This document shows positions 7,071-24,815 of a stretch of 64,000 nucleotides of DNA, piece after piece. The position numbers and the translations under genes are program-made. The number at the start of each line of letters is the position of its first letter. The first letter of the stretch is position 1. This DNA is from Desulfobacterium sp. (lineage in GTDB: Bacteria; Desulfobacterota; Desulfobacteria; Desulfobacterales; Desulfobacteraceae), in NCBI GenBank assembly GCA_016342325.1, contig JAEINR010000012.1, positions 1 through 64,000 on the forward strand, written 5' to 3'. Below the pieces are notes generated by a model, which did no database searches, was not told the DNA's origin, and saw nothing but the letters and a program-made list of their open reading frames with translations.

Positions 7071-9188
7071 TTACGCCGTTGCAGCGGCGGGTCTCCTGTT
7101 TACCGGAACCGTGGGAAAGAGCCGCATCTCGGTGTGGGGCAGGAACTGGGCCTTGATGAACTCGTCCATGAACCGTGGGGAGGAGGAAAAATCCACATAG
7201 GTCATGGCATTGGATATGGTCAGGGCCTCTTCCCTGAAATCCCGTGACAAGAGCGCCATGTACGCCCCTGCAATGGAGGAGTTGCCCATGTATCGGAACT
7301 TTGACCGGTCCATGTCCGGCAGCAGCCCCATGATGATCGCTTTTTCGATGTCCAGGTGCTGGCCAAACCCGCCGGTGATGATCATCTGCTCCACCATGGA
7401 GAAATCCATGTCGACCTCCTCCAACAGGGCGGTGAAGCCTGCGTAGATGGCGGCCTTGGACAGGACCAGGCTCTTGATGTCGGACTCGGTGAAGATGATC
7501 TCCTCCCCTGTGGCAAGGGTGTGGGCCTGGTCGATGATAAAGGCGGGTTCGTCGTTGAACCGGGTCATGCGGTCATGGGAGGGGGCAAGCAGGAACTTGC
7601 CGTCCTGGCCGATCACGCCCTTGAGCAGCATCTCGGAGATGAGGTCGATCATGCCGGAGCCGCAGATGCCCCGGGCCGGCTTGTTGCCCACGGTTTCATA
7701 GTGGGGCTCAAAGGTGTCCGGATCAAGGGTAAGCTTTTCGATGGCACCTTCTTCGGCCCGCATGCCCCAGCGGATTCCGCCCCCCTCAAAGGCCGGGCCT
7801 GCGGAACAGGCGGCTGTCATGAGGAACTCCTTATTGCCAAGGACGATCTCTCCGTTGGTGCCGACATCAATGAACAAGGTCAAGGCCTCGGCCATGTGGA
7901 ATCCGGTGTAGAGCACCCCTGATACGACATCGCCGCCCACATAACTGGCCGGTCCGGGCATGATGAAGACTCCGGCGTGGGGGGCGGCCCTGAGGCCCAG
8001 CTCCCGGGCCTTGAGGATGGGGAATTCCGATACCGTGGGGATGTAGGGCTCCCTGCGGATGTATTTTGATTCCAGGCCCAACAGGAGGTGGGTCATGGTG
8101 GTGTTGCCCGCGATCACGATGTTGTCGATGGCTTTGTGGTCGTCCGCAAGGCGGGAAAGGGCCCGCTGGGTGAGGTCGTTGATGGTGGAAAGGGCCATGC
8201 CCTTGAGTTTTCTCACCCCGTCCTTTTCCGCGCAGACCATGCGGTTGATCACGTCGTCGCCGCAGGCCGCCTGGCGGTTGTGCCCCGATGCCGCCGAGAG
8301 CACGGCCCCTGTTTCCATCTCCACGAGGTAGACCACGATGGAGGTGGTCCCAAGGTCCACGGCAAGGCCCAGGCTTCGTTTTTTGCTGTGTTCGGGAATC
8401 ACCTTGACGATCTCGCTTGCGCACTTCTTCCTCAGCACGGACACGGAGATCTTCCAGTCATCCTCCCTCGAGGCTTCGGTGATTTCCCGCATCACCCTCA
8501 GGTTGGTGCTCAGCCGTGTGGTGTCAATCCCCTGGTGCTTCAGGCCCAGGGTCATCCTGTCAAGGTCGCTCATGGAATCATCCAGGGTGGGGGGGGCCAG
8601 GTGGAGGGAGGTGGATTTCACCATGGGGACGATGGCGTCCACGAGGCCCGTGAGTTTTTCCGTGGCCTCCTTGCCCATTCCCTCGGCCCTGAGCTTCTTC
8701 TCCAGGGTCTCTTCCGGGATTCTCACCTGCACATCCCCCAACACCCGGGTCTGGCAGGCCAGCAGATAGCCCCGCTCTTTTTCCCGGTCGCTCAGCAGGG
8801 TGGTTTTTTCGCTGTCAACGTTTCCGGTTTCAAGGATCAGCCGGCATTTGCCGCAGGATCCCTTGCCGTTGCAGGAGGCGTTGATGTAAATTTCGGCTTT
8901 TTCGGCTGCTTCAAGCAGGGAGGTGCCCAGGGGAACATCCACCCTGGCCTCCCCGGGATTGAACGCCACGGTGCACGTCTCACTTTCTTTCTCCTCCCTT
9001 GCCGGAGCCACCTCCTTTTCCTCGGCGTCAAACCCTTTTTTCGACATAAAGTGAATGGGGCAGGAGGTTCTGAACTTGCAGTAGATATCGGGATCCTTGC
9101 ACTCAAGGCAGCGGTCGCATTGATATAGGTTGTGTTTCATGCACTTGTAGGGGGTTTCCTGGTCGGGGTGGTTGACGCATTTGCCCAT
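7071..9188 (-). CDS. ASKHA-domain (DUF4445) 2Fe-2S protein, corrinoid-protein reductive activator type
   Basis: A 705-residue protein related to RACo/RamA-type activators, which reduce inactive Co(II) corrinoid proteins at the expense of ATP. Residues 1-45 carry eight Cys in a zinc- or cluster-like arrangement (C4, C16, C24, C27, C30, C37, C43 and neighbours). A plant-type 2Fe-2S domain follows, with C106, C112, C115 and C145. The rest is the ASKHA ATPase-like DUF4445 region, with the phosphate-binding loop in AVDLGTTSIVVYLVE and IDVGTNGEIVLG. The ATG at 9188 is preceded by AAAGGAGAG, so I rejected an in-frame start 54 bp upstream. No methyltransferase or corrinoid gene is nearby, so its client is unknown. 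It is divergent from a two-component operon. Confidence 0.88.
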   Translation of the reverse strand: MGKCVNHPDQETPYKCMKHNLYQCDRCLECKDPDIYCKFRTSCPIHFMSKKGFDAEEKEVAPAREEKESETCTVAFNPGEARVDVPLGTSLLEAAEKAEIYINASCNGKGSCGKCRLILETGNVDSEKTTLLSDREKERGYLLACQTRVLGDVQVRIPEETLEKKLRAEGMGKEATEKLTGLVDAIVPMVKSTSLHLAPPTLDDSMSDLDRMTLGLKHQGIDTTRLSTNLRVMREITEASREDDWKISVSVLRKKCASEIVKVIPEHSKKRSLGLAVDLGTTSIVVYLVEMETGAVLSAASGHNRQAACGDDVINRMVCAEKDGVRKLKGMALSTINDLTQRALSRLADDHKAIDNIVIAGNTTMTHLLLGLESKYIRREPYIPTVSEFPILKARELGLRAAPHAGVFIMPGPASYVGGDVVSGVLYTGFHMAEALTLFIDVGTNGEIVLGNKEFLMTAACSAGPAFEGGGIRWGMRAEEGAIEKLTLDPDTFEPHYETVGNKPARGICGSGMIDLISEMLLKGVIGQDGKFLLAPSHDRMTRFNDEPAFIIDQAHTLATGEEIIFTESDIKSLVLSKAAIYAGFTALLEEVDMDFSMVEQMIITGGFGQHLDIEKAIIMGLLPDMDRSKFRYMGNSSIAGAYMALLSRDFREEALTISNAMTYVDFSSSPRFMDEFIKAQFLPHTEMRLFPTVPVNRRPAAATA

Positions 9189-9269
9189 GGTCTCTCCTTT
9201 GGTTCTGGTCACTGTTGTGCCGGGCAGCGATATCGGCAACATTTGTGCCGCCCTTTCCGTGGCTGGGGC

Positions 9270-9418
9270 GGTTCGGTTGAACCATACTGAAACAAAGGGG
9301 AAAACACAAGGCAGTCGCCCCTCTTTTTTAGGGGCCCATGGCAGGGGGCAAACCGGTTCTCTTCTTCTTTATATTGTGCTATCGTTTTCATACACGGTTC
9401 TTTCATCAGAGAACCGGT
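9270..9418. promoter_or_regulatory. Cluster of inverted half-sites between divergent operons
   Basis: The 264-bp divergent intergenic region contains several dyads. GGTTC/GAACC lies at 9270-9283. ACCGGTTCTCT (9352-9362) is a perfect inverted match to AGAGAACCGGT (9408-9418). A third CGGTTCT half-site at 9395 forms a smaller hairpin with the last one. This arrangement suits a DNA-binding regulator such as the sigma54 activator encoded downstream. I found no good -24/-12 sigma54 element here. Confidence 0.4.
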
Positions 9419-9452
9419 CAACGCCGTAACCTCAATACCATATGGGGGAGTT

Positions 9453-10988
9453 ATGGAGCGTATTCGTCCACACCACCATGAACGAATCGATTTCAACCTG
9501 GCCATTGTCGGAGGTGGAAGAGCGTGCCGGTTTTTCCTTGACCTGTTGGCCCACGAGTCCTTTCCCTATCTCAAGTTGAACGTGGTTGGCGTGTGTGACA
9601 TCGACCTTGGGGCCGAGGGCATTGCCATGGCCCATGCCATGGGGATATTCACCACCGATGATTTCAGGGAACTGTTCAAGATCCCCAAGCTCAACGCCGT
9701 GATTGAACTGACCAATTCCAGGGCCCTTCCCGAACTGATCGCGGCACGGCCCAAGGGGGTCGGTGTGATCGAACATAACATCGGCCGACTGTTAAGGCAC
9801 TTGTTTGAGATGAACCAGCGCCTTGCATCGGCAAACGAGCAGCTTTTGCTTGAAAAAACCTCCACCGACATCCTGTTCCAGCAGATCAATCTTGGGGTGG
9901 TGCTCCTGAACACCGATTTTACCATCATCGATGCCAACGACCATTATCTAACGGCCGTTGGAATGACCCGGGAAGAACTGGCCGGGAAGTACTGTTACAA
10001 CGTGATCAAGGGGTTTTATGCCCCCTGCCATGCCCAGGAGAAAGGGTTTGATTGTCCCCTGGTTCGCACGGTCAGGACCGGTAAATCCGCCCATGTGATC
10101 CATGAACATTCCCTTGGCCCCGGCAAGACCGCCTATTTCAACATTGCCACCTATCCGGTAAAGGATTCCCAAGGCAAGGTGATCCGTATCGTGGAACTAT
10201 GGCGGGACATCACCTCCCAGATTACGGACCGGTGGAAGCACAAGGTGAGGCAGATCGAGGCGGACATGAAAAAGGTGGTCCAGGAAGACCGGCTCGTCTC
10301 CCTGGGAAAGCTTGTGGCCTCCAGTGTCCATGAGATCAACAATCCCATCCAGGGGCTTCTCACCTTCAGTCACATCATGGAGGAGATGATCCGGGAGGGC
10401 CGGACCGGACCTGGGGAGATGGAACAGTTTAAGGAGTTCCTCTCCCACATGTCCCGGGAGCTTGAGCGGTGCGGCAAGATCGTGTCCGGGCTGCTCACCT
10501 TTTCCAGGGAGTCGCCCCAGGCCTTTGTCCATGTGGATGTGAACGATATCCTGGGCTCGGTGCTTTCCCTCACCGGTCACAAGATAGAGATCTCCAAGAT
10601 TGCGCTGAAACAGCGCCTCTGTAATGCGCCGCTCATGGTCCGGGGCAACAACAACCAGCTCCAGCAGTGCTTTCTGAACCTGATCTTCAACGCTATTGAA
10701 GCCATGCCCCAGGGGGGTGAGCTTGCGGTGGTTTCGGGGCAGGATCCTGGGGCGGGTGTCACCGTGGAGATCAAGGATACCGGCTGGGGCATCCGCCAGG
10801 ATCATATGGAGCACATCTTTGATCCGTTTTTCACCACCAAGGAGGAGGGCCAGGGGACCGGCCTTGGACTCTCCATTGTCTACGGCATTGTCAAAGATCA
10901 CGGGGGGACCATACGGGTGACCAGCAAAGACAAGGGGGGTAGTTCGTTCACCATGACTTTTCCCCGGGTGGGGGAGGGATCACCATGA
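9453..10988 (+). CDS. PAS sensor histidine kinase with N-terminal Rossmann-like domain
   Basis: A 511-residue soluble histidine kinase. Residues ~12-115 look like a nucleotide-binding Rossmann domain (LAIVGGGRACRFFLDLL, then an acidic end in VGVCDID), like the start of a homoserine- or aspartate-dehydrogenase-type fold. A PAS domain follows (~140-255) with Cys181, Cys192 and Cys201, which could be redox or metal sensitive. HisKA has the phospho-acceptor His293 in SSVHEINNPI. The HATPase has an N-box (LNLIFNAIEAMPQGG) and G-boxes (DTGWGIR, GQGTGLGLSIV). It has no membrane segments. It overlaps the response regulator by 4 bp, and the RBS GGGGGAG precedes the ATG. Confidence 0.9.
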   Translation: MERIRPHHHERIDFNLAIVGGGRACRFFLDLLAHESFPYLKLNVVGVCDIDLGAEGIAMAHAMGIFTTDDFRELFKIPKLNAVIELTNSRALPELIAARPKGVGVIEHNIGRLLRHLFEMNQRLASANEQLLLEKTSTDILFQQINLGVVLLNTDFTIIDANDHYLTAVGMTREELAGKYCYNVIKGFYAPCHAQEKGFDCPLVRTVRTGKSAHVIHEHSLGPGKTAYFNIATYPVKDSQGKVIRIVELWRDITSQITDRWKHKVRQIEADMKKVVQEDRLVSLGKLVASSVHEINNPIQGLLTFSHIMEEMIREGRTGPGEMEQFKEFLSHMSRELERCGKIVSGLLTFSRESPQAFVHVDVNDILGSVLSLTGHKIEISKIALKQRLCNAPLMVRGNNNQLQQCFLNLIFNAIEAMPQGGELAVVSGQDPGAGVTVEIKDTGWGIRQDHMEHIFDPFFTTKEEGQGTGLGLSIVYGIVKDHGGTIRVTSKDKGGSSFTMTFPRVGEGSP

Positions 10989-19043: not shown

Positions 19044-19994
19044 GTGGTTTCCTGTTCCAGAAGCAAAATTATTCTATCGTTTTCAGCCATTTATTTTGTC
19101 TGGGGCTCCAACTACCTTGCCATGCGGGTGGCGGTTGACACCACCCCGCCTTTTTTGACCATGGCCCTGCGATTTTTCCTGGCCTCACTCCTCCTTGCCC
19201 TGGTCGCCGGGCCCGGACGATTTAAATCCCTTGGCGTTAGGCAGATCCGCAACGCCCTTGTTGTGGGCATGCTGCTGGTGGGCATGGGCAGCGGCCCCAT
19301 TGCCTGGGCCATGCTCCAAGTGCCCACCGGGATCGCCGCCATGATCGCTGCCAGTGTGCCGGTCTGGTTTGTTCTGTTTGAGAAACTGCTCAAGGGGGAT
19401 TCCGGGTTGAGGGGGCTTGGCTGGGCAGGGATTTTTGTCAGCACGGCAGGGGTGATCCTGCTGATCGGGGGCAACAGTGCCAACCGCTTTGGAGCGGCCC
19501 CCCTGGTGCCTTTGTTGACCATTGTGCTGGCCTGCCTGTTGTGGGCGTTTGGGTCCATCTGGGGAACGGTGCTTGACAAGCCCGCCGACAACCGGGTGGA
19601 TGTTTCCATCCAGATGATGGGCGGGGCCCTGTGCAATCTCGTCTTCAGCCTTCCCATGGGCGAATGGCAAAACCTCTCCGCCATGACCGTGGGGGTGAAC
19701 TTCTTCATGGTCCTTACCTATCTGGTGGTGTTTGGATCGATCCTGGTGTTTCTGGCCTTTAATTTCCTGATCCGGAATGTGGGCGCAGGCCTTGTGTCCA
19801 CCCACTCCTATGTCAACCCGGTGGTGGCGGTGACCCTGGGGTGGTTTTTCCTGGGCGAAACCGTTGATGCCCTAATGGTGGGGGCAAGCGTGATGATCCT
19901 TGCCGGTGTGGCCCTCATCAAGCTGGGGTCCCGGACACCCGGGAATATCGCTGTTGAACAGGGGGCGGCTGCCCTGGAAAAGGCACCCTTATAA
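19044..19994 (+). CDS. EamA-family (DMT) transporter
   Basis: A 316-residue integral membrane protein with two EamA repeats, about ten predicted membrane segments in all. The N-terminal repeat has the familiar FSAIYFVWGSNYLAMRVAVD with PPFLTMALRFFLA. The C-terminal repeat ends VNPVVAVTLGWFFLGETVDA. Family members are drug/metabolite exporters, many for amino acids or their analogues. The start is GTG 19044, with GGAGGGAGAGG upstream. It stands alone just upstream of the Liv-type transporter leader. Its substrate cannot be read from sequence. Confidence 0.88.
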   Translation: MVSCSRSKIILSFSAIYFVWGSNYLAMRVAVDTTPPFLTMALRFFLASLLLALVAGPGRFKSLGVRQIRNALVVGMLLVGMGSGPIAWAMLQVPTGIAAMIAASVPVWFVLFEKLLKGDSGLRGLGWAGIFVSTAGVILLIGGNSANRFGAAPLVPLLTIVLACLLWAFGSIWGTVLDKPADNRVDVSIQMMGGALCNLVFSLPMGEWQNLSAMTVGVNFFMVLTYLVVFGSILVFLAFNFLIRNVGAGLVSTHSYVNPVVAVTLGWFFLGETVDALMVGASVMILAGVALIKLGSRTPGNIAVEQGAAALEKAPL

Positions 19995-20003
19995 AAATAA
20001 TCC

Positions 20004-20032
20004 TTGACACGGCGAATCGTGTTCCCTATAGT
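20004..20032 (+). promoter_or_regulatory. Sigma70-type promoter of the attenuator-controlled Liv-type operon
   Basis: A consensus -35 TTGACA (20004-20009) and a near-consensus -10 TATAGT (20027-20032) are separated by exactly 17 bp. Transcription would start near 20039, 26 nt before the leader-peptide ATG and about 270 nt before the first transporter gene. Confidence 0.8.
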
Positions 20033-20064
20033 TTCACGAACTAATCAAATCAAAACGGGATATT

Positions 20065-20148
20065 ATGACTTACAACGCTTTCTATTTTTATCGGTTTTCC
20101 TTTTTTGGCTACTTCTTTATGAAGTCTGGCCATGGAGGACCCGTGTAG
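20065..20148 (+). CDS. Phe/Tyr-rich leader peptide of the transporter operon (27 residues)
   Basis: A short ORF (ATG 20065 to TAG 20146-20148) predicted to encode a 27-residue peptide with Phe at 6, 8, 11, 13, 14, 17, 18 and Tyr at 3, 7, 9, 16. That makes 11 aromatic residues within positions 3-18, with no Trp. This resembles the pheA/pheST-type leader peptides of enterobacteria. The sequence before the ATG, GGGATATT, is a modest ribosome-binding site. The peptide itself should have no function; its translation would read Phe-tRNA and Tyr-tRNA charging. Its 3' end (20123-20135) overlaps RNA segment 2 of the attenuator, and its stop codon is 11 nt beyond, so a ribosome finishing the peptide would cover segment 2. 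Confidence 0.8.
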   Translation: MTYNAFYFYRFSFFGYFFMKSGHGGPV

Positions 20149-20224
20149 AGAGCAAAAGCATCCCGAGCGAGTCAAAACCATGGACAGACTGAACCAGTCT
20201 AAATCCATGGTTTTTCTGTTTTTG
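20107..20224 (+). promoter_or_regulatory. Transcription attenuator: 1:2, 2:3 antiterminator and 3:4 terminator structures
   Basis: Three mutually exclusive pairings are visible. Pairing 1:2 is GGCTACTTC (20107-20115) with GAAGT-CTG-GCC (20121-20131). The antiterminator 2:3 is AGTCTGGCCATGG (20123-20135) with CCATGGACAGACT (20178-20190), 12 of 13 bases paired. The terminator 3:4 is AAAACCATGGA plus AGACT (20174-20190) with AGTCT plus TCCATGGTTTT (20196-20214), followed by the U-rich TTTTTCTGTTTTT. Stalling at the Phe/Tyr codons should free segment 2 and allow readthrough; complete translation should let the terminator form. This is the logic of trp/phe/his attenuation. Confidence 0.8.
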
Positions 20225-20307
20225 GGATCCCGGGTTTTCAGCTGGCAGTCAGCCAAGGGTTTGACTCCTGACCATTAACGTACCAGTTAATCAGGAGAAA
20301 ACACCCA

Positions 20308-21456
20308 ATGTCTATCAAGACCCTTGTCCAACTCTTCATCGCCATCACCCTTTGTATCACCCCGTTGTCAACGGTGGCTGCGAAATCCGTCTACAAGATC
20401 GGGGGGATTTTCTCCTCCACGGGAAGGGCCTCGTTCCTAGGGGACCCTGAAAAACGCACCATGGAGATGATGGTGGACAGGATCAATGCCAATGGCGGCA
20501 TTGACGGCCACCTTTTAGAAGCGGTGATCTACGATTCCGAGGGGGATCCGGCCAAGGCCGTGAGCGCCGTGAACAAGCTGATTCACCGGGACAAGGTCCT
20601 GGCCATCATCGGCCCCAGCACCACCCCCACCACCCTGGCCGTGGTTAACTTTGTGGAGAGGGCGAAAATGCCCCTGATCAGCTGCGCCGCCGGGATCAAT
20701 ATCACAACGCCTGTGAAGCCCTGGGTGTTCAAGACCGCCCAGAGCGACCGCCTCGCCGTTCAAGGTCTCTATGCGCACATGCAGGCGAAATCCGTCAAGA
20801 CCGTGGGTATCATCACCGTTTCCAACTCCTTTGGCGAAAGCGGCAAGGAGCAGTTGATCTCCCTTGCAAAAGAGTACGGCATCACCATCGTGGCCAAGGA
20901 GAGCTTTGGCGCAAAGGACACAGACACCACAGCCCAGCTCACCAAGCTCAAGAAGGCTTCTCCGGACGCCCTGATCTGCTGGGGTACCAACCCCGGACCC
21001 GCCGTGGTGGCAAAGAATGCACAGCAGCTCAAGATCGATATCCCCCTCTACCAGAGCCACGGGGTGGCATCTCCCAAATTCATCGCCCTTGCCGGTGATT
21101 CGGCAGAGGGCATTGTGCTGCCCACGGGCAAGATCCTGGTCATGGACCAGCTGTTGGATGACGATCCCCAGAAGCAGATTCTCCAGGACTATAAGGCCAT
21201 GTACAGCGCAGGCAAGGCCGGGGCGGTTTCCGGGTTCGGCGGCTATGCCCATGACGCCATGACCATTTTGGCTGAGGCCCTCAAGGGCAGCAACGGCGAC
21301 AAACAACAGATTCGTGACAACCTTGAAACCCTGGAAAACCATGTGGGGGTCACTGGCCGTTACAGCTTTTCTCCGGAAGACCACAACGGGCTCAGCGCCA
21401 GCGCTTTTGTCATGGTTGAAATTAAGAACAAAACCTGGAATCTTCTGGGGCGATAG
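20308..21456 (+). CDS. Branched-chain-type (LivJ family) amino-acid ABC transporter, periplasmic binding protein
   Basis: A 382-residue periplasmic binding protein of the Leu/Ile/Val-binding (Peripla_BP_6) family, with an N-terminal signal peptide ending near VAAKS (about residue 27). Features include YKIGGIFSSTGRASFLGDPE, VNKLIHRDKVLAIIGPSTTP and VSGFGGYAHDAMTIL. It would capture substrate for the permeases and ATPases encoded next. It follows the aromatic-residue leader and attenuator, which suggests Phe/Tyr as ligands rather than Leu/Ile/Val; that is inference. CAGGAG precedes the ATG, and a small ATTAAC/GTTAAT hairpin (20274-20291) lies directly before this site. The permease gene starts 9 bp after the stop. 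Confidence 0.92.
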   Translation: MSIKTLVQLFIAITLCITPLSTVAAKSVYKIGGIFSSTGRASFLGDPEKRTMEMMVDRINANGGIDGHLLEAVIYDSEGDPAKAVSAVNKLIHRDKVLAIIGPSTTPTTLAVVNFVERAKMPLISCAAGINITTPVKPWVFKTAQSDRLAVQGLYAHMQAKSVKTVGIITVSNSFGESGKEQLISLAKEYGITIVAKESFGAKDTDTTAQLTKLKKASPDALICWGTNPGPAVVAKNAQQLKIDIPLYQSHGVASPKFIALAGDSAEGIVLPTGKILVMDQLLDDDPQKQILQDYKAMYSAGKAGAVSGFGGYAHDAMTILAEALKGSNGDKQQIRDNLETLENHVGVTGRYSFSPEDHNGLSASAFVMVEIKNKTWNLLGR

Positions 21457-21465
21457 GAGGCTGTT

Positions 21466-22341
21466 GTGGAGGATCTGCTTCAATACCTGTTCTCAGGCAT
21501 ATCCATCGGGTCGGTTTATGCCGTGGTCGCCATCGGCCTTTCCATGCTCTACCGGTCCACCGAGCTGATTAACTTTGCCCATGGCGAGTTTGCCATGTTC
21601 GGCGCCATGGGGCTTGTGACCCTGTGGGGGCAGTTTAAGCTACCCCTGCCCCTGGCCTTTGTTCTGACCGTTGCAGGGGTTTCAATGGTGGGCATCCTGT
21701 TCGAGCGGTTTGCCATCCGCCCGATCAAGGATCCCCATCCCATTTCGTTGGTGATCATCACCGTGGGTGCTTCCATCGTGTTCCGGGGGGTCGCCATGGT
21801 GGTCTGGGGAAAGGATCCCGTGGCGTTGCCGTCGTTTTCAAGCCATGGCTCCATTGAGATCGCAGGGGCGGTGATCGTTCCCCAGAGCCTCTATATTGTT
21901 GCCGCAGCCCTGGTTCTGGCCGGCAGCCTGCATCTTTTTTTCCGGTACACCCTCCAGGGAAAGGCCATGACCGCCTGTGCTGTGAATAAAAAGGCGGCCT
22001 GGCTCACGGGCATCCCCTCTGCCAGGATGGGGTTGTTTGCCGTTCTCATCAGCAGCGGATCCGGGGCCATCGCCGGGATATTCATCGCGCCGGTCACCAT
22101 GAACACCTACGATATGGGAACCATGCTCGGCCTCAAGGGGTTTTGCGCCGCCATGATCGGTGGCCTTGGCAGCCTGTGGGGCGCCTTTGCCGGCGGCCTG
22201 CTTCTCGGGATCCTCGAATGCTTTGGAGCGGGACTCATTTCGTCGGGCTGCAAGGATGCCATCGCCTTTGTGTTGCTTTTGTTGATCCTCTACCTCTGCC
22301 CGGGCGGGTTGTTTGCACAAAAACAGGCGGATCGGTTTTAA
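21466..22341 (+). CDS. livH: Branched-chain-type amino-acid ABC transporter permease (LivH family)
   Basis: A 291-residue polytopic permease of the LivH type. The N-terminus (LQYLFSGISIGSVYAVVAIG) and the loop STELINFAHGEFAMFGAMG are family hallmarks, and about eight membrane segments are expected. It pairs with the LivM-type permease to form the channel. The start is GTG 21466 with ATAGGAGG upstream. The conserved EAA-like cytoplasmic loop is around GLKGFCAAMIGGLGSLWGA. It is the second gene in the five-gene operon. Confidence 0.93.
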   Translation: MEDLLQYLFSGISIGSVYAVVAIGLSMLYRSTELINFAHGEFAMFGAMGLVTLWGQFKLPLPLAFVLTVAGVSMVGILFERFAIRPIKDPHPISLVIITVGASIVFRGVAMVVWGKDPVALPSFSSHGSIEIAGAVIVPQSLYIVAAALVLAGSLHLFFRYTLQGKAMTACAVNKKAAWLTGIPSARMGLFAVLISSGSGAIAGIFIAPVTMNTYDMGTMLGLKGFCAAMIGGLGSLWGAFAGGLLLGILECFGAGLISSGCKDAIAFVLLLLILYLCPGGLFAQKQADRF

Positions 22342-22358
22342 TTATGAAAGGAAGTAAA

Positions 22359-23300
22359 ATGGATAAAAAACTGGTCCACAATCTGTTGTTTATAGCGGTG
22401 GTGGCGGTGACGGGGATGGTGGTGGAAAACATCTACCTGCTTCAGATCATGACCTTTATCGGGATCAACACCCTGCTTGCCCTGGGGCTCAACATGCTCA
22501 TGGGGTATGCGGGCCAGGTCTCCCTGGGCCACGGGGCCTTTTACGGCATCGGTGCCTATGCCACGGCCTATCTGTCCGGGACCCTGGGAATCTCTCCCTG
22601 GGCGGCCCTTGTGTGCGCCATCGTCCTTTCCGTTGCCGTGGCCTTTGTGGTGGGTCGGCCGACCCTGAAGCTGTCGGGGTACTACCTGGGTATGGGCACC
22701 CTGGGATTTGGCATGATCGTCCATATCCTGTTCCGGGAGGCCGGCTCCATCACCGGCGGTGCCTCCGGGTTTGTGGGCATTCCCATGCTTACCCTCGGGC
22801 CGTTGTCGTTTGAGGGGGGGCGGAACTATTTCTATCTTGTCTGGACCGTGGTGTTTGGGGCGATCTTTTTGTGCAAACGGATTATTGACTCAAAAACCGG
22901 CCGGGCCCTGGCCGCCATCCATGGCAGGGAAAACGCGGCCGTGGCCCTGGGGGTGGACGCCCATGCGTTGAAGCTTAACATCTTCATGTTCTCAGCCGCC
23001 CTGGGAGCCATGGCCGGATTCCTCTATGCCCATTTTGTTTTGTTCATCAGCCCCGACTCCTTTGGGTTCATGGCATCGGTGAAGATGGTGACCATGGTGG
23101 TGATCGGGGGCATGGCAAACGTGTGGGGGGCCCTTATCGGCGCAGTGGTGATTACGCTTCTACCCGAGGTTCTCCACGGGTTTGCAGACCATGAGATGAT
23201 CGTTTTTGGATTGATATTGATGGGGGTGATGATCGTCATGCCCCAGGGACTGACACAAGGGGTGATAGAGCGCTATGCACGGTATAAGAAAAGAGCATGA
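22359..23300 (+). CDS. livM: Branched-chain-type amino-acid ABC transporter permease (LivM family)
   Basis: A 313-residue second permease. LIV-type landmarks are LGLNMLMGYAGQVSLGHGAF and the cytoplasmic loop with GRALAAIHGRENAAVALGVD. Two ATGs are possible, 22344 and 22359. I prefer 22359 because AAAGGAAG sits at proper distance before it. Its 3' end overlaps the first ATPase gene by 26 bp. Together with LivH it would form the inner-membrane translocation pore. Confidence 0.93.
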   Translation: MDKKLVHNLLFIAVVAVTGMVVENIYLLQIMTFIGINTLLALGLNMLMGYAGQVSLGHGAFYGIGAYATAYLSGTLGISPWAALVCAIVLSVAVAFVVGRPTLKLSGYYLGMGTLGFGMIVHILFREAGSITGGASGFVGIPMLTLGPLSFEGGRNYFYLVWTVVFGAIFLCKRIIDSKTGRALAAIHGRENAAVALGVDAHALKLNIFMFSAALGAMAGFLYAHFVLFISPDSFGFMASVKMVTMVVIGGMANVWGALIGAVVITLLPEVLHGFADHEMIVFGLILMGVMIVMPQGLTQGVIERYARYKKRA

Positions 23301-24075
23301 AAATCTCCTCTTGCAGGTCAAGGGGCTGACAAAACAGTTTGGCGGGGTAAAGGCCCAGGATAATGTTTCCTTCGGGGTTGAGCAGGGGAGCGTCCTGGGA
23401 CTGATCGGGCCCAACGGTGCCGGTAAGACAACGCTTTTCAACATGATCACCGGGGTCTGTGTCCAGGACAAAGGGGAGATCCTGTTCAACGGACACGCCA
23501 TTGAATCCATGCCGGTGCATAAACGGGTGGCCGCCGGTATTGCAAGGACATTTCAGAATGTGGAGCTGTTTCCCGGCATGACCGTTTTGGAGAATGTTCT
23601 GGTGGGTATGCATGTTCGTTTGAAGAGCGGATTCTGGGGCGCGATCATCCGGTCCCCCCGGGTGGTGAAAGAGGAACGGATTGCCCGGGAAAAAGCCCTT
23701 GAGATCCTCGAGTTTACCGGGCTTTTATCCTATGCCGATAGAATTGCCTGCGATCTTCCCGTGGGGCGCCAGAAGACGGCCGAGATCGCAAGGGCCCTGG
23801 CCACCGACCCCCTTCTTATCTTGTTGGACGAACCTGCGGCAGGGTTGAACCGCATCGAGACCCAGGCCCTGGGAGCGCTCATCTGTCGGATAAAAGAGCA
23901 GGGGATCACCCTGATGCTGGTGGAGCATGACATGGGGCTTGCCATGGAGGTGTGTGACAAGATCCTGGTGCTGGACCGGGGAGAGGCCATTGCGCTTGCC
24001 ACCCCCCAACAGATCACCAACGACCAAAAGGTTATGGACGCTTACCTGGGAGAGGAGTTCCAATGCTTGAACTAA
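23275..24075 (+). CDS. livG: Branched-chain-type amino-acid ABC transporter ATP-binding protein (LivG family)
   Basis: A 266-residue ABC ATPase. Walker A is GPNGAGKTT in GLIGPNGAGKTTLFNMITG. Walker B ends LLILLDEPAAGLN and the switch His is in MLVEHDMGLAM. The family's LSGG signature is replaced here by LPVGRQKTAEIARAL, which is seen in some LivG-type proteins where the usual form is LSYGQQR. The LivG-specific arm PSKRVAAGIARTFQ appears here as VHKRVAAGIARTFQNVELF. It overlaps livM by 26 bp and livF by 13 bp. The start 23275 is chosen by the track of homology; a slightly later start is possible. Confidence 0.9.
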   Translation: MHGIRKEHENLLLQVKGLTKQFGGVKAQDNVSFGVEQGSVLGLIGPNGAGKTTLFNMITGVCVQDKGEILFNGHAIESMPVHKRVAAGIARTFQNVELFPGMTVLENVLVGMHVRLKSGFWGAIIRSPRVVKEERIAREKALEILEFTGLLSYADRIACDLPVGRQKTAEIARALATDPLLILLDEPAAGLNRIETQALGALICRIKEQGITLMLVEHDMGLAMEVCDKILVLDRGEAIALATPQQITNDQKVMDAYLGEEFQCLN

Positions 24076-24815
24076 AAAATGTACAGTGCCATTATGGCAG
24101 GATCACGGCGGTGAACGGGGTGAGCCTCTCTGTGAGCAAGGGAGAGCTGGTCTCCATTATCGGGGCCAACGGGGCGGGCAAGAGTACGCTCTTTTCCACC
24201 ATCTGCGGACTTCTCACCACCTGGGACGGGGAGATCCTTTTTAAGGGGGCAAGCCTCAGGGGGTTGCCGCCCTCTGATATCGTTTCCCGGGGCATCTCCA
24301 TGGTGCCCGAGGGTCGGCAGATCTTTGCCCCCTTGAGCGTCATGGACAACCTGCTCCTTGGGAGCTATTGCGTCAAGCAGTCCCGGAAGGCCCGAAAACG
24401 TGAGATCGCGCGGATGATGGATCTTTTTCCCATACTGGGGGAGCGCCGGGACCAGCCCGCCGGCACCCTGTCCGGCGGGGAGCAGCAGATGCTTGCCATT
24501 GGCCGGGCATTGATGGCAAAGCCTGAACTCCTGGTATTGGATGAGCCTTCCATGGGACTTGCGCCCAAGATTGTGAAGACGATTTTTAACACCATCCGGC
24601 AACTGAGGTCCGAGGGGGTCACCATTGTCCTGGTGGAGCAGAATGCCGGTGCGGCCCTGGCCATTTCCGATCGCGGCTATGTGCTGGAAACGGGCAAGGT
24701 GGTGCTGGAGGGCAGTGCCAAGGCCCTGTTTTGCGACGAGGGGGTGAAGCAGGCCTATATTGGTAAGACCCCCACCGCCCCACCCCGGGATGAGTCACTG
24801 TTGATTGGCGCTTGA
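24063..24815 (+). CDS. livF: Branched-chain-type amino-acid ABC transporter ATP-binding protein (LivF family)
   Basis: A 250-residue ABC ATPase. Walker A is IGANGAGKSTLFSTICG, the signature is LSGGEQQMLAIGRALM, Walker B is LLVLDEPSMGLAP, and the switch region is VLVEQN. The LivF-typical VPEGRQIFAPLSVMDNLLLG is present. It is the last gene of the operon and overlaps livG by 13 bp. No clear terminator follows; the 65-bp gap before nrdJ is too short to show an obvious stem with a U-tract. Confidence 0.93.
   Translation: MLELKNVQCHYGRITAVNGVSLSVSKGELVSIIGANGAGKSTLFSTICGLLTTWDGEILFKGASLRGLPPSDIVSRGISMVPEGRQIFAPLSVMDNLLLGSYCVKQSRKARKREIARMMDLFPILGERRDQPAGTLSGGEQQMLAIGRALMAKPELLVLDEPSMGLAPKIVKTIFNTIRQLRSEGVTIVLVEQNAGAALAISDRGYVLETGKVVLEGSAKALFCDEGVKQAYIGKTPTAPPRDESLLIGA

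Follow-up and report, generated by a model that had tools for sequence, protein, structure and literature searches.

A predicted Phe/Tyr-responsive leader attenuator ahead of a HAAT-type transporter operon in Desulfobacterium sp. and its relatives

We describe a leader that is very probably a ribosome-mediated attenuator sensing charged tRNA-Phe and tRNA-Tyr, and that would form part of a regulon for aromatic amino acid supply. It lies at 20004-20308 of a 64,000-nucleotide stretch of Desulfobacterium sp. DNA (the window) and stands before a transporter operon. Related leaders precede shikimate-pathway genes and paaK in the same genome and in many genomes of its order and phylum.

Anatomy of the leader and its operon

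The operon behind the leader is a full HAAT/LIV-type set, with a Peripla_BP_6 binding protein, LivHM-type permeases and LivGF-type ATPases. The features are:

20004-20032, forward strand: sigma70-type promoter (TTGACA at 20004-20009, 17-nt spacer, TATAGT at 20027-20032)
20065-20148, forward strand: leader peptide ORF of 27 codons, from ATG at 20065 to TAG at 20148, MTYNAFYFYRFSFFGYFFMKSGHGGPV
20106-20132, forward strand: 1:2 protector hairpin (from folding and per-pair counts on 53 leaders)
20123-20135, forward strand: strand 2 of the antiterminator
20174-20219, forward strand: intrinsic terminator 3:4 and U-tract (stem 20174-20214)
20178-20190, forward strand: strand 3, common to antiterminator 2:3 and terminator 3:4
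20308-21456, forward strand: HAAT-type periplasmic binding protein (Peripla_BP_6)
21466-22341, forward strand: LivH-type permease (BPD_transp_2)
22344-23300, forward strand: LivM-type permease (predicted start; reading frame open from 22143)
23275-24075, forward strand: LivG-type ATPase
24063-24815, forward strand: LivF-type ATPase

A first-pass annotation of this DNA had described a TTGACA-N17-TATAGT promoter, a 27-codon ORF with seven Phe and four Tyr at positions 3-18, and three exclusive pairings (1:2, 2:3 and 3:4) in front of a Liv-type ABC operon. We recovered each of these elements, including the 12 of 13 pairs claimed for 2:3, and a binding protein, two permeases and two ATPases do follow.

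The promoter agrees with 11 of 12 consensus positions. A promoter scan gave one site compared to a mean of 0.6 in shuffles, and the match taken alone is weak evidence; a TTGAC(A) box also precedes many relatives' leaders, as judged by eye. The control codons of the leader ORF run from Tyr3 to Phe18. The window contains 714 ORFs of 15-45 codons that start with ATG; this one alone has at least 11 Phe plus Tyr, and its Phe+Tyr fraction is 0.41 compared to 0.27 for the next best. When 1 Mb of order-1 Markov sequence was built from the leader, 6 of 7974 ORFs of this kind reached both at least 11 Phe plus Tyr and a fraction of at least 0.40.

Folded apart, the 1:2 hairpin has an energy of -11.4 kcal/mol (z -2.9; 4 of 200 shuffles equally stable), the 2:3 antiterminator -28.3 kcal/mol (z -5.0) and the 3:4 terminator -20.6 kcal/mol (z -5.4), and the fold of the entire leader has a z of -5.3. 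The 2:3 and 3:4 pairings are mutually exclusive, and the 1:2 hairpin overlaps the control codons. A simple terminator scanner called none in 19900-20400; the 3:4 arms, which are joined via an asymmetric inner loop, are probably outside its rule. At the gathering cut-offs of Rfam 15, the window gave only 5S rRNA, with no leader, T-box or riboswitch family, and 15 loci with leaders gave only 16S rRNA.

A further hairpin (20265-20297, forward strand; -15.9 kcal/mol with closing pairs, z -3.5) encloses the Shine-Dalgarno AGGAG of the binding-protein gene. A like fold is found in both other genomes of the genus (three genomes folded, this genus only), and the hairpin may add translational control.

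With ribosome footprints as generally known for trp-type attenuation, the leader would work as follows. When charged tRNA-Phe and tRNA-Tyr are plentiful, the ribosome would reach the stop codon at 20146 and cover strand 2, upon which the 3:4 terminator would form and RNA polymerase would halt near 20215. When Phe or Tyr is short, the ribosome would stall on the aromatic run. A stall at codons 11-16 (20095-20112) would cover strand 1 and leave strand 2 (20123-20135) free, 2:3 would form and the transporter operon would be transcribed; a stall at codons 17-18 would start covering strand 2. Anatomy, conservation, covariation and gene context are observed directly, and it is the switching itself that we infer.

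Aromatic leaders in relatives and in the same genome

We built a covariance model, R1, from eight leaders (L015, L017 and L018 among them lack the aligned ATG) and searched the own genome, the family (86 genomes), the order (389) and the phylum (395). The own genome has two places at E<1e-8; a further, weak match (E 0.88) is an antisense echo of the leader in the window. Matches at E<=0.1 occur in at least 24 of 86 family genomes and at least 133 of 389 order genomes, and some of these will be chance at this per-genome threshold; at E<=1e-4, at least 22 of 395 phylum genomes have a match. These genome counts are lower bounds, because the large searches score few candidates per genome. Relatives of the binding protein (E<=1e-60) are present in 25 of 58 genomes, the own genome counted, and similar leaders, such as MNNSAFLFFRFTFFGGFFMKSGHGGIF from the same genus and, from a different family within the order, MMYFRRYCFFSYFGGFFRKATRGGV, lie upstream of several relatives' genes. 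In one genus (g2) the binding protein is present in all five relatives compared, yet R1 had no match there in the family search.

To describe the genes behind the leaders we read the 96 matches listed with E<=1.6e-4 in the family and order searches, the window excepted, plus the weak L063 and L070. Two matches (L150 and L155) stop at a contig end and 94 have a downstream gene on the contig. The first reference gene matched is paaK in 43 cases, ADTH synthase in 21, the binding protein described here in 19, DAHP synthase in 8, pheA in 2 and aroE in 1. The first reference gene downstream is thus one of aromatic supply in 94 of 94, a tally rather than a blind test, with a reference set picked after a first look at the neighbours, that would miss an unrelated gene standing ahead of the reference gene. 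L063 and L070 (E about 0.015), which have no reference gene downstream, are not counted as leaders, nor is a match in a genome of the same genus (G002:C1:1654757, E 0.004) that looks like chance.

The leaders fall into two types. Those of type A stand before paaK or the binding protein; they are rich in Phe, with Tyr as a lesser component (for example, MRFRFFYFGFFSFLGGFFFRKSIHGPAR), and have on average 7.3 Phe, 1.4 Tyr and 0.16 Trp in the 56 of 63 matches having an ORF with at least 5 aromatic residues, a loose rule under which some g8 ORFs are counted in a shifted frame. Those of type B stand before shikimate-pathway genes (for example, MVHNRSGRYYFYYWYFFNTGLPGVR) and average 3.7 Phe, 4.6 Tyr and 0.8 Trp, with Trp present in 23 of 33; L150 and L155 were put into the counts of the two types by their peptides. 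Many type B leaders (e.g. L061, L096 and L125) also have an early Ser-Gly-Arg or similar (TCAGGCAG), whose bases, able to pair with strand 2 (CTGCCTG), are a possible alternative strand 1.

We read 18 of the 19 new loci from the phylum-wide R1 search, L226 being the same place as L148. A reference gene at least 35% identical comes first behind an aromatic leader in 17 of the 18; in L228 an unrelated gene is first and a paaK match lies 1.1 kb downstream. A second model, R2, built from type B leaders, gave 29 loci across the phylum, one of which (L195) coincides with a place read before, and their leaders contain 6 to 12 aromatic residues. The genes behind them, L207 apart, judged by eye from their first residues, are ADTH synthase, DAHP synthase and aroK-aroC. 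At L192 and L193, in another family of the phylum, a Phe-rich leader stands ahead of a different HAAT-type binding protein (by eye).

The aromatic codons and the 2:3/3:4 pairing, whose lack of conservation the first-pass annotation had named as refuting its proposal, are conserved across relatives and covary on the leader alignment. In the same 56 of 63 type A matches, Phe makes up 27.1% of residues in frame compared to 14.5% and 15.2% in the other frames. Over codons 2-18 of 18 equal-length leaders (of 50 selected), pairwise differences number 253, 196 and 394 at codon positions 1, 2 and 3, and one-base codon changes are synonymous in 189 cases and not in 172; the pairs compared are 70-99% identical and not independent.

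For the antiterminator we used the window leader and 52 more of type A, 53 in all (L147 and ten g8 loci lacking the aligned ATG excluded), in an alignment fitted to 1:2 and 3:4 only, not to 2:3. Over all 12 pairs of 2:3, 91.0% of cells are paired, with 97.0% in the 11-pair helix and 17.4% at the lone outermost pair. Two-sided changes number 25 cells compared to 7.5 in shuffles and 2 to 6 in slid versions, and one pair varies between A-U (24), G-C (11), U-A (6), G-U (6) and U-G (3). In these leaders the 1:2 hairpin is paired in 76.3% of cells in its outer part and 96.2% in its inner part, and helix 4 inside the terminator in only 42.7%. In type B leaders the 2:3 helix is kept in 86.2% of cells, and its two-sided change (3 compared to 1.7 in shuffles, with 99 of 500 as high) is not clearly above chance.

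The leader ORF is kept in most lineages, and genus g8 departs from this pattern. At 10 of its 14 loci (L048-L055, L058 and L060) there is no ATG at the aligned leader start, and several are frame-shifted; promoter and terminator are kept. These ten make up 10 of the 19 binding-protein leaders tallied, all in one genus. Since they lack the aligned ATG, leader control in g8 has decayed, has changed or uses another start codon, and we describe the g8 leaders as decaying or re-purposed attenuators.

The own genome holds several such leaders. The second R1 place is a leader, MVYRFFFIFFFKADFRFTRSAHGKII, before paaK-ACT. R2 recovered both R1 places (E 2.7e-4 and 0.02) and found two more leaders, one ahead of ADTH synthase and DHQ synthase II (E 4e-17) and the other ahead of DAHP synthase (E 6.7e-11). 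Three further R2 matches, with E-values of 0.8-2.1, seem to be chance; one of these lies antisense to the leader of DAHP synthase. In another genome of the genus (G002), a leader precedes pheA, followed by aroE, aroA, aroK and aroC (these read by eye).

R2 also gave a weak match (E 0.017) before ilvD, where the peptide MIRNLIINLLLSVDVVEVIIITFRGKG has Ile, Leu and Val codons (L167, 1501-1638; G000:C63:55355-55492). This unsought leader serves as an inner control that leader codons follow the pathway: within one genome they are F/Y before the transporter operon, paaK and ADTH synthase, F/Y/W before DAHP synthase and I/L/V before ilvD. Since the genome has at least four aromatic leaders, the window leader included, the transporter probably belongs to an aromatic amino acid supply regulon. 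The conserved codons and pairings, with like leaders before shikimate genes in the same genome, support on sequence evidence the earlier proposal that stalling on uncharged Phe- or Tyr-tRNA would open the transporter.

The transporter, paaK and the predicted cargo

In six loci from other families (L039, L138, L139, L140, L142 and L143) the gene order is paaK-ACT-SBP-LivH-LivM-LivG-LivF. The binding protein is 60-65% identical to that of the window in four of these and 43-44% in L138 and L139. Altogether 20 of 43 paaK loci reach the binding protein inside the fetched stretch; of the remaining 23, 16 had a downstream stretch of no more than about 1.5 kb. The cluster is divided in G046 and in the lineage of the window, where paaK-ACT lies apart from SBP-LivHMGF with a separate leader on each. 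As they are joined in relatives and, when split, each carry a leader, the ligase and the importer seem to work as a single unit that answers to a common signal. The own-genome PaaK behind the second leader scores 640.6 bits compared to a TIGR02155 cut-off of 646.3, at full length and with this as its best family.

A second paaK-like gene (35-40% identical) follows LivF in L039, L139, L140, L142 and L143 (in L143 at 8900-10207), and in L137 a paaK-like gene (35-40%) follows the Liv genes without a first paaK. An IOR alpha gene that passes the family cut-off is also present in the own genome; searched with this gene, 18 loci of at least 7 kb showed no match at E<=1e-20 beside these operons.

The predicted structure of the binding protein has a pLDDT of 92. 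Its top structural match, 7ylt, is titled 'Structure of a bacteria protein' and may be the auxin binder IadK2 of PMC10374108; according to the accessible part of that paper, IadK2 does not bind phenylacetate. The structures that come after it (Z 40-42) include several titled with 3-phenylpyruvate, p-coumarate, caffeate or 3-hydroxybenzoate, the ligands in the closest solved proteins whose titles name one. Amino-acid-type structures score Z 39.3 (3hut), 38.7 (4gnr, named LivJ) and 35.5 (E. coli LivJ, 2liv). By sequence, the seven best solved proteins have E-values of 1e-37 to 1e-40, compared to 4.4e-33 for 4gnr and 5e-14 for E. coli LivJ.

Two motifs point the same way as the ligand titles. The [YH]PEMGQ segment of LivJ/LivK, whose acidic residue we take to hold the ligand's amino group, is NPGPAVV in the window protein and three relatives, so that this residue is replaced by Gly. 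The window protein also has YQSHGVAS where CouP-type aromatic-acid binders have YQTHGAAS, with YQ[ST]HG in common. The model for branched-chain amino acid binding proteins NF011933 gives 90.6 bits and does not reach its curated cut-off of 477. CouP itself binds 4-hydroxyphenylpyruvate at 15 nM according to the accessible part of PMC3610893.

The nearest structures and the paaK synteny would favour an aromatic acid over an amino acid as the predicted cargo, and we rate an aromatic acid, for instance an arylacetate, at least as highly as aromatic amino acids. When paaK and the direction in which the attenuator works are added, these pointers suggest arylacetate uptake for Phe/Tyr synthesis; that the cargo, probably such an acid, is turned into Phe/Tyr has, in our judgement, an even chance of being right. 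We regard as equally balanced the fuller proposal of a salvage route, in which the transporter, PaaK and a 2-oxoacid oxidoreductase would let arylacetates from other microbes be carboxylated to Phe/Tyr, switched on with the shikimate pathway by one attenuator family.

More tentatively, the same attenuator could govern import of Phe and Tyr themselves for protein synthesis, the cargo that the first-pass annotation implied. An amino acid importer under starvation control would work without any additional enzyme, and the LIV-type family can carry Phe, since RefSeq annotates E. coli LIV as a branched-chain amino acid/phenylalanine transporter. Named amino acid binders are also near: 3hut in fold, and 4gnr in both fold and sequence. 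Import of this kind fits poorly with the leader-paaK-ACT-SBP-Liv operon of relatives, with the aromatic acids held by the closest ligand-titled structures, and with a binding protein that has Gly in place of the LivJ/LivK acidic residue and shares YQ[ST]HG with aromatic-acid binders.

We consider it unlikely that the operon serves aromatic breakdown, with paaK making phenylacetyl-CoA for degradation and the leader acting as a brake on catabolism. PaaK is best known from phenylacetate degradation. The related Rhodopseudomonas transporter serves the use of lignin aromatics (PMC3610893, accessible part). Nevertheless, an attenuator that opens at Phe/Tyr shortage would have the wrong sense for degrading their relatives, and leaders of this class also precede the operons of ADTH synthase, DAHP synthase and pheA. 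Finally, it is hardly credible that the leader is a plain terminator of the upstream EamA-family gene with a chance T-rich ORF: that gene does end at 19994, T is abundant in the leader and genus g8 has not kept the ORF, but a promoter-like site lies between the EamA gene and the leader, and leader peptide, antiterminator and gene context are conserved.

Known systems and the meaning of the leader family

The pheA, pheST, trp and his attenuators are leader-peptide attenuators of Proteobacteria. The leader described here shares with them a short ORF in which the regulatory codons occur in runs, an antiterminator and a terminator that exclude each other, a U-tract and a stop codon beyond strand 2. 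It differs in its target, an ABC importer (elsewhere paaK), and in scoring below every Rfam gathering score. A his leader attenuator is described in the accessible part of PMC9413887, which also predicts leader-peptide attenuators before an amino-acid ABC transporter for histidine. These are alike in being leader-peptide attenuation of an amino-acid ABC transporter; they concern histidine, another transporter family and another phylum, and our comparison with them is by the paper's description only.

Attenuated ABC transporter candidates number 205 in the accessible part of PMC2965389, the main text of which, to that extent, has no match for Desulfo, aromatic or phenylalanine. In the literature searched, which includes few subscription journals, we found no aromatic leader before a HAAT importer or paaK, no such regulon and no such leaders in the phylum. 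The mechanism of attenuation is textbook, and this target is absent from the literature searched. The first-pass remark that aromatic attenuation of a HAAT importer is not commonly described has to be narrowed, given the histidine ABC transporter attenuators in print as predictions in PMC9413887 (accessible part).

Two systems come close to the proposed function. CouPSTU of Rhodopseudomonas palustris likewise has a LivK-family binding protein, as the accessible part of PMC3610893 describes it, and the Rp1789 entries 4jb0/4jb2 are 29% identical to the window binding protein with Z 40.5-40.6 over 348-349 residues. That system is tied to lignin aromatics and CouR in the same accessible part, whereas the window operon is under a predicted amino-acid starvation attenuator. 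Methanococcus maripaludis is reported to make aryl acids into aromatic amino acids via indolepyruvate oxidoreductase, as cited in the accessible part of PMC4162585. The idea of turning aryl acids into aromatic amino acids is common to both, and the own genome holds an IOR alpha gene; this gene has no visible link to the transporter operon in the 18 loci.

By our reading, Phe/Tyr shortage is the likely signal both for a transporter type whose name implies uptake of branched-chain amino acids and for a paaK-ACT cluster whose name implies catabolism. The leader would tie this transporter type to the supply of aromatic amino acids in one group of sulfate-reducing bacteria and their relatives. The regulon also hints at a direction, as genes opened by Phe/Tyr starvation should supply Phe/Tyr. 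In many genomes available as sequence only, genes of aromatic supply are marked by an RNA family for which no Rfam model reaches its gathering score. If true, the salvage reading would turn a cluster that looks like 'phenylacetate degradation plus branched-chain transporter' into a biosynthetic one.
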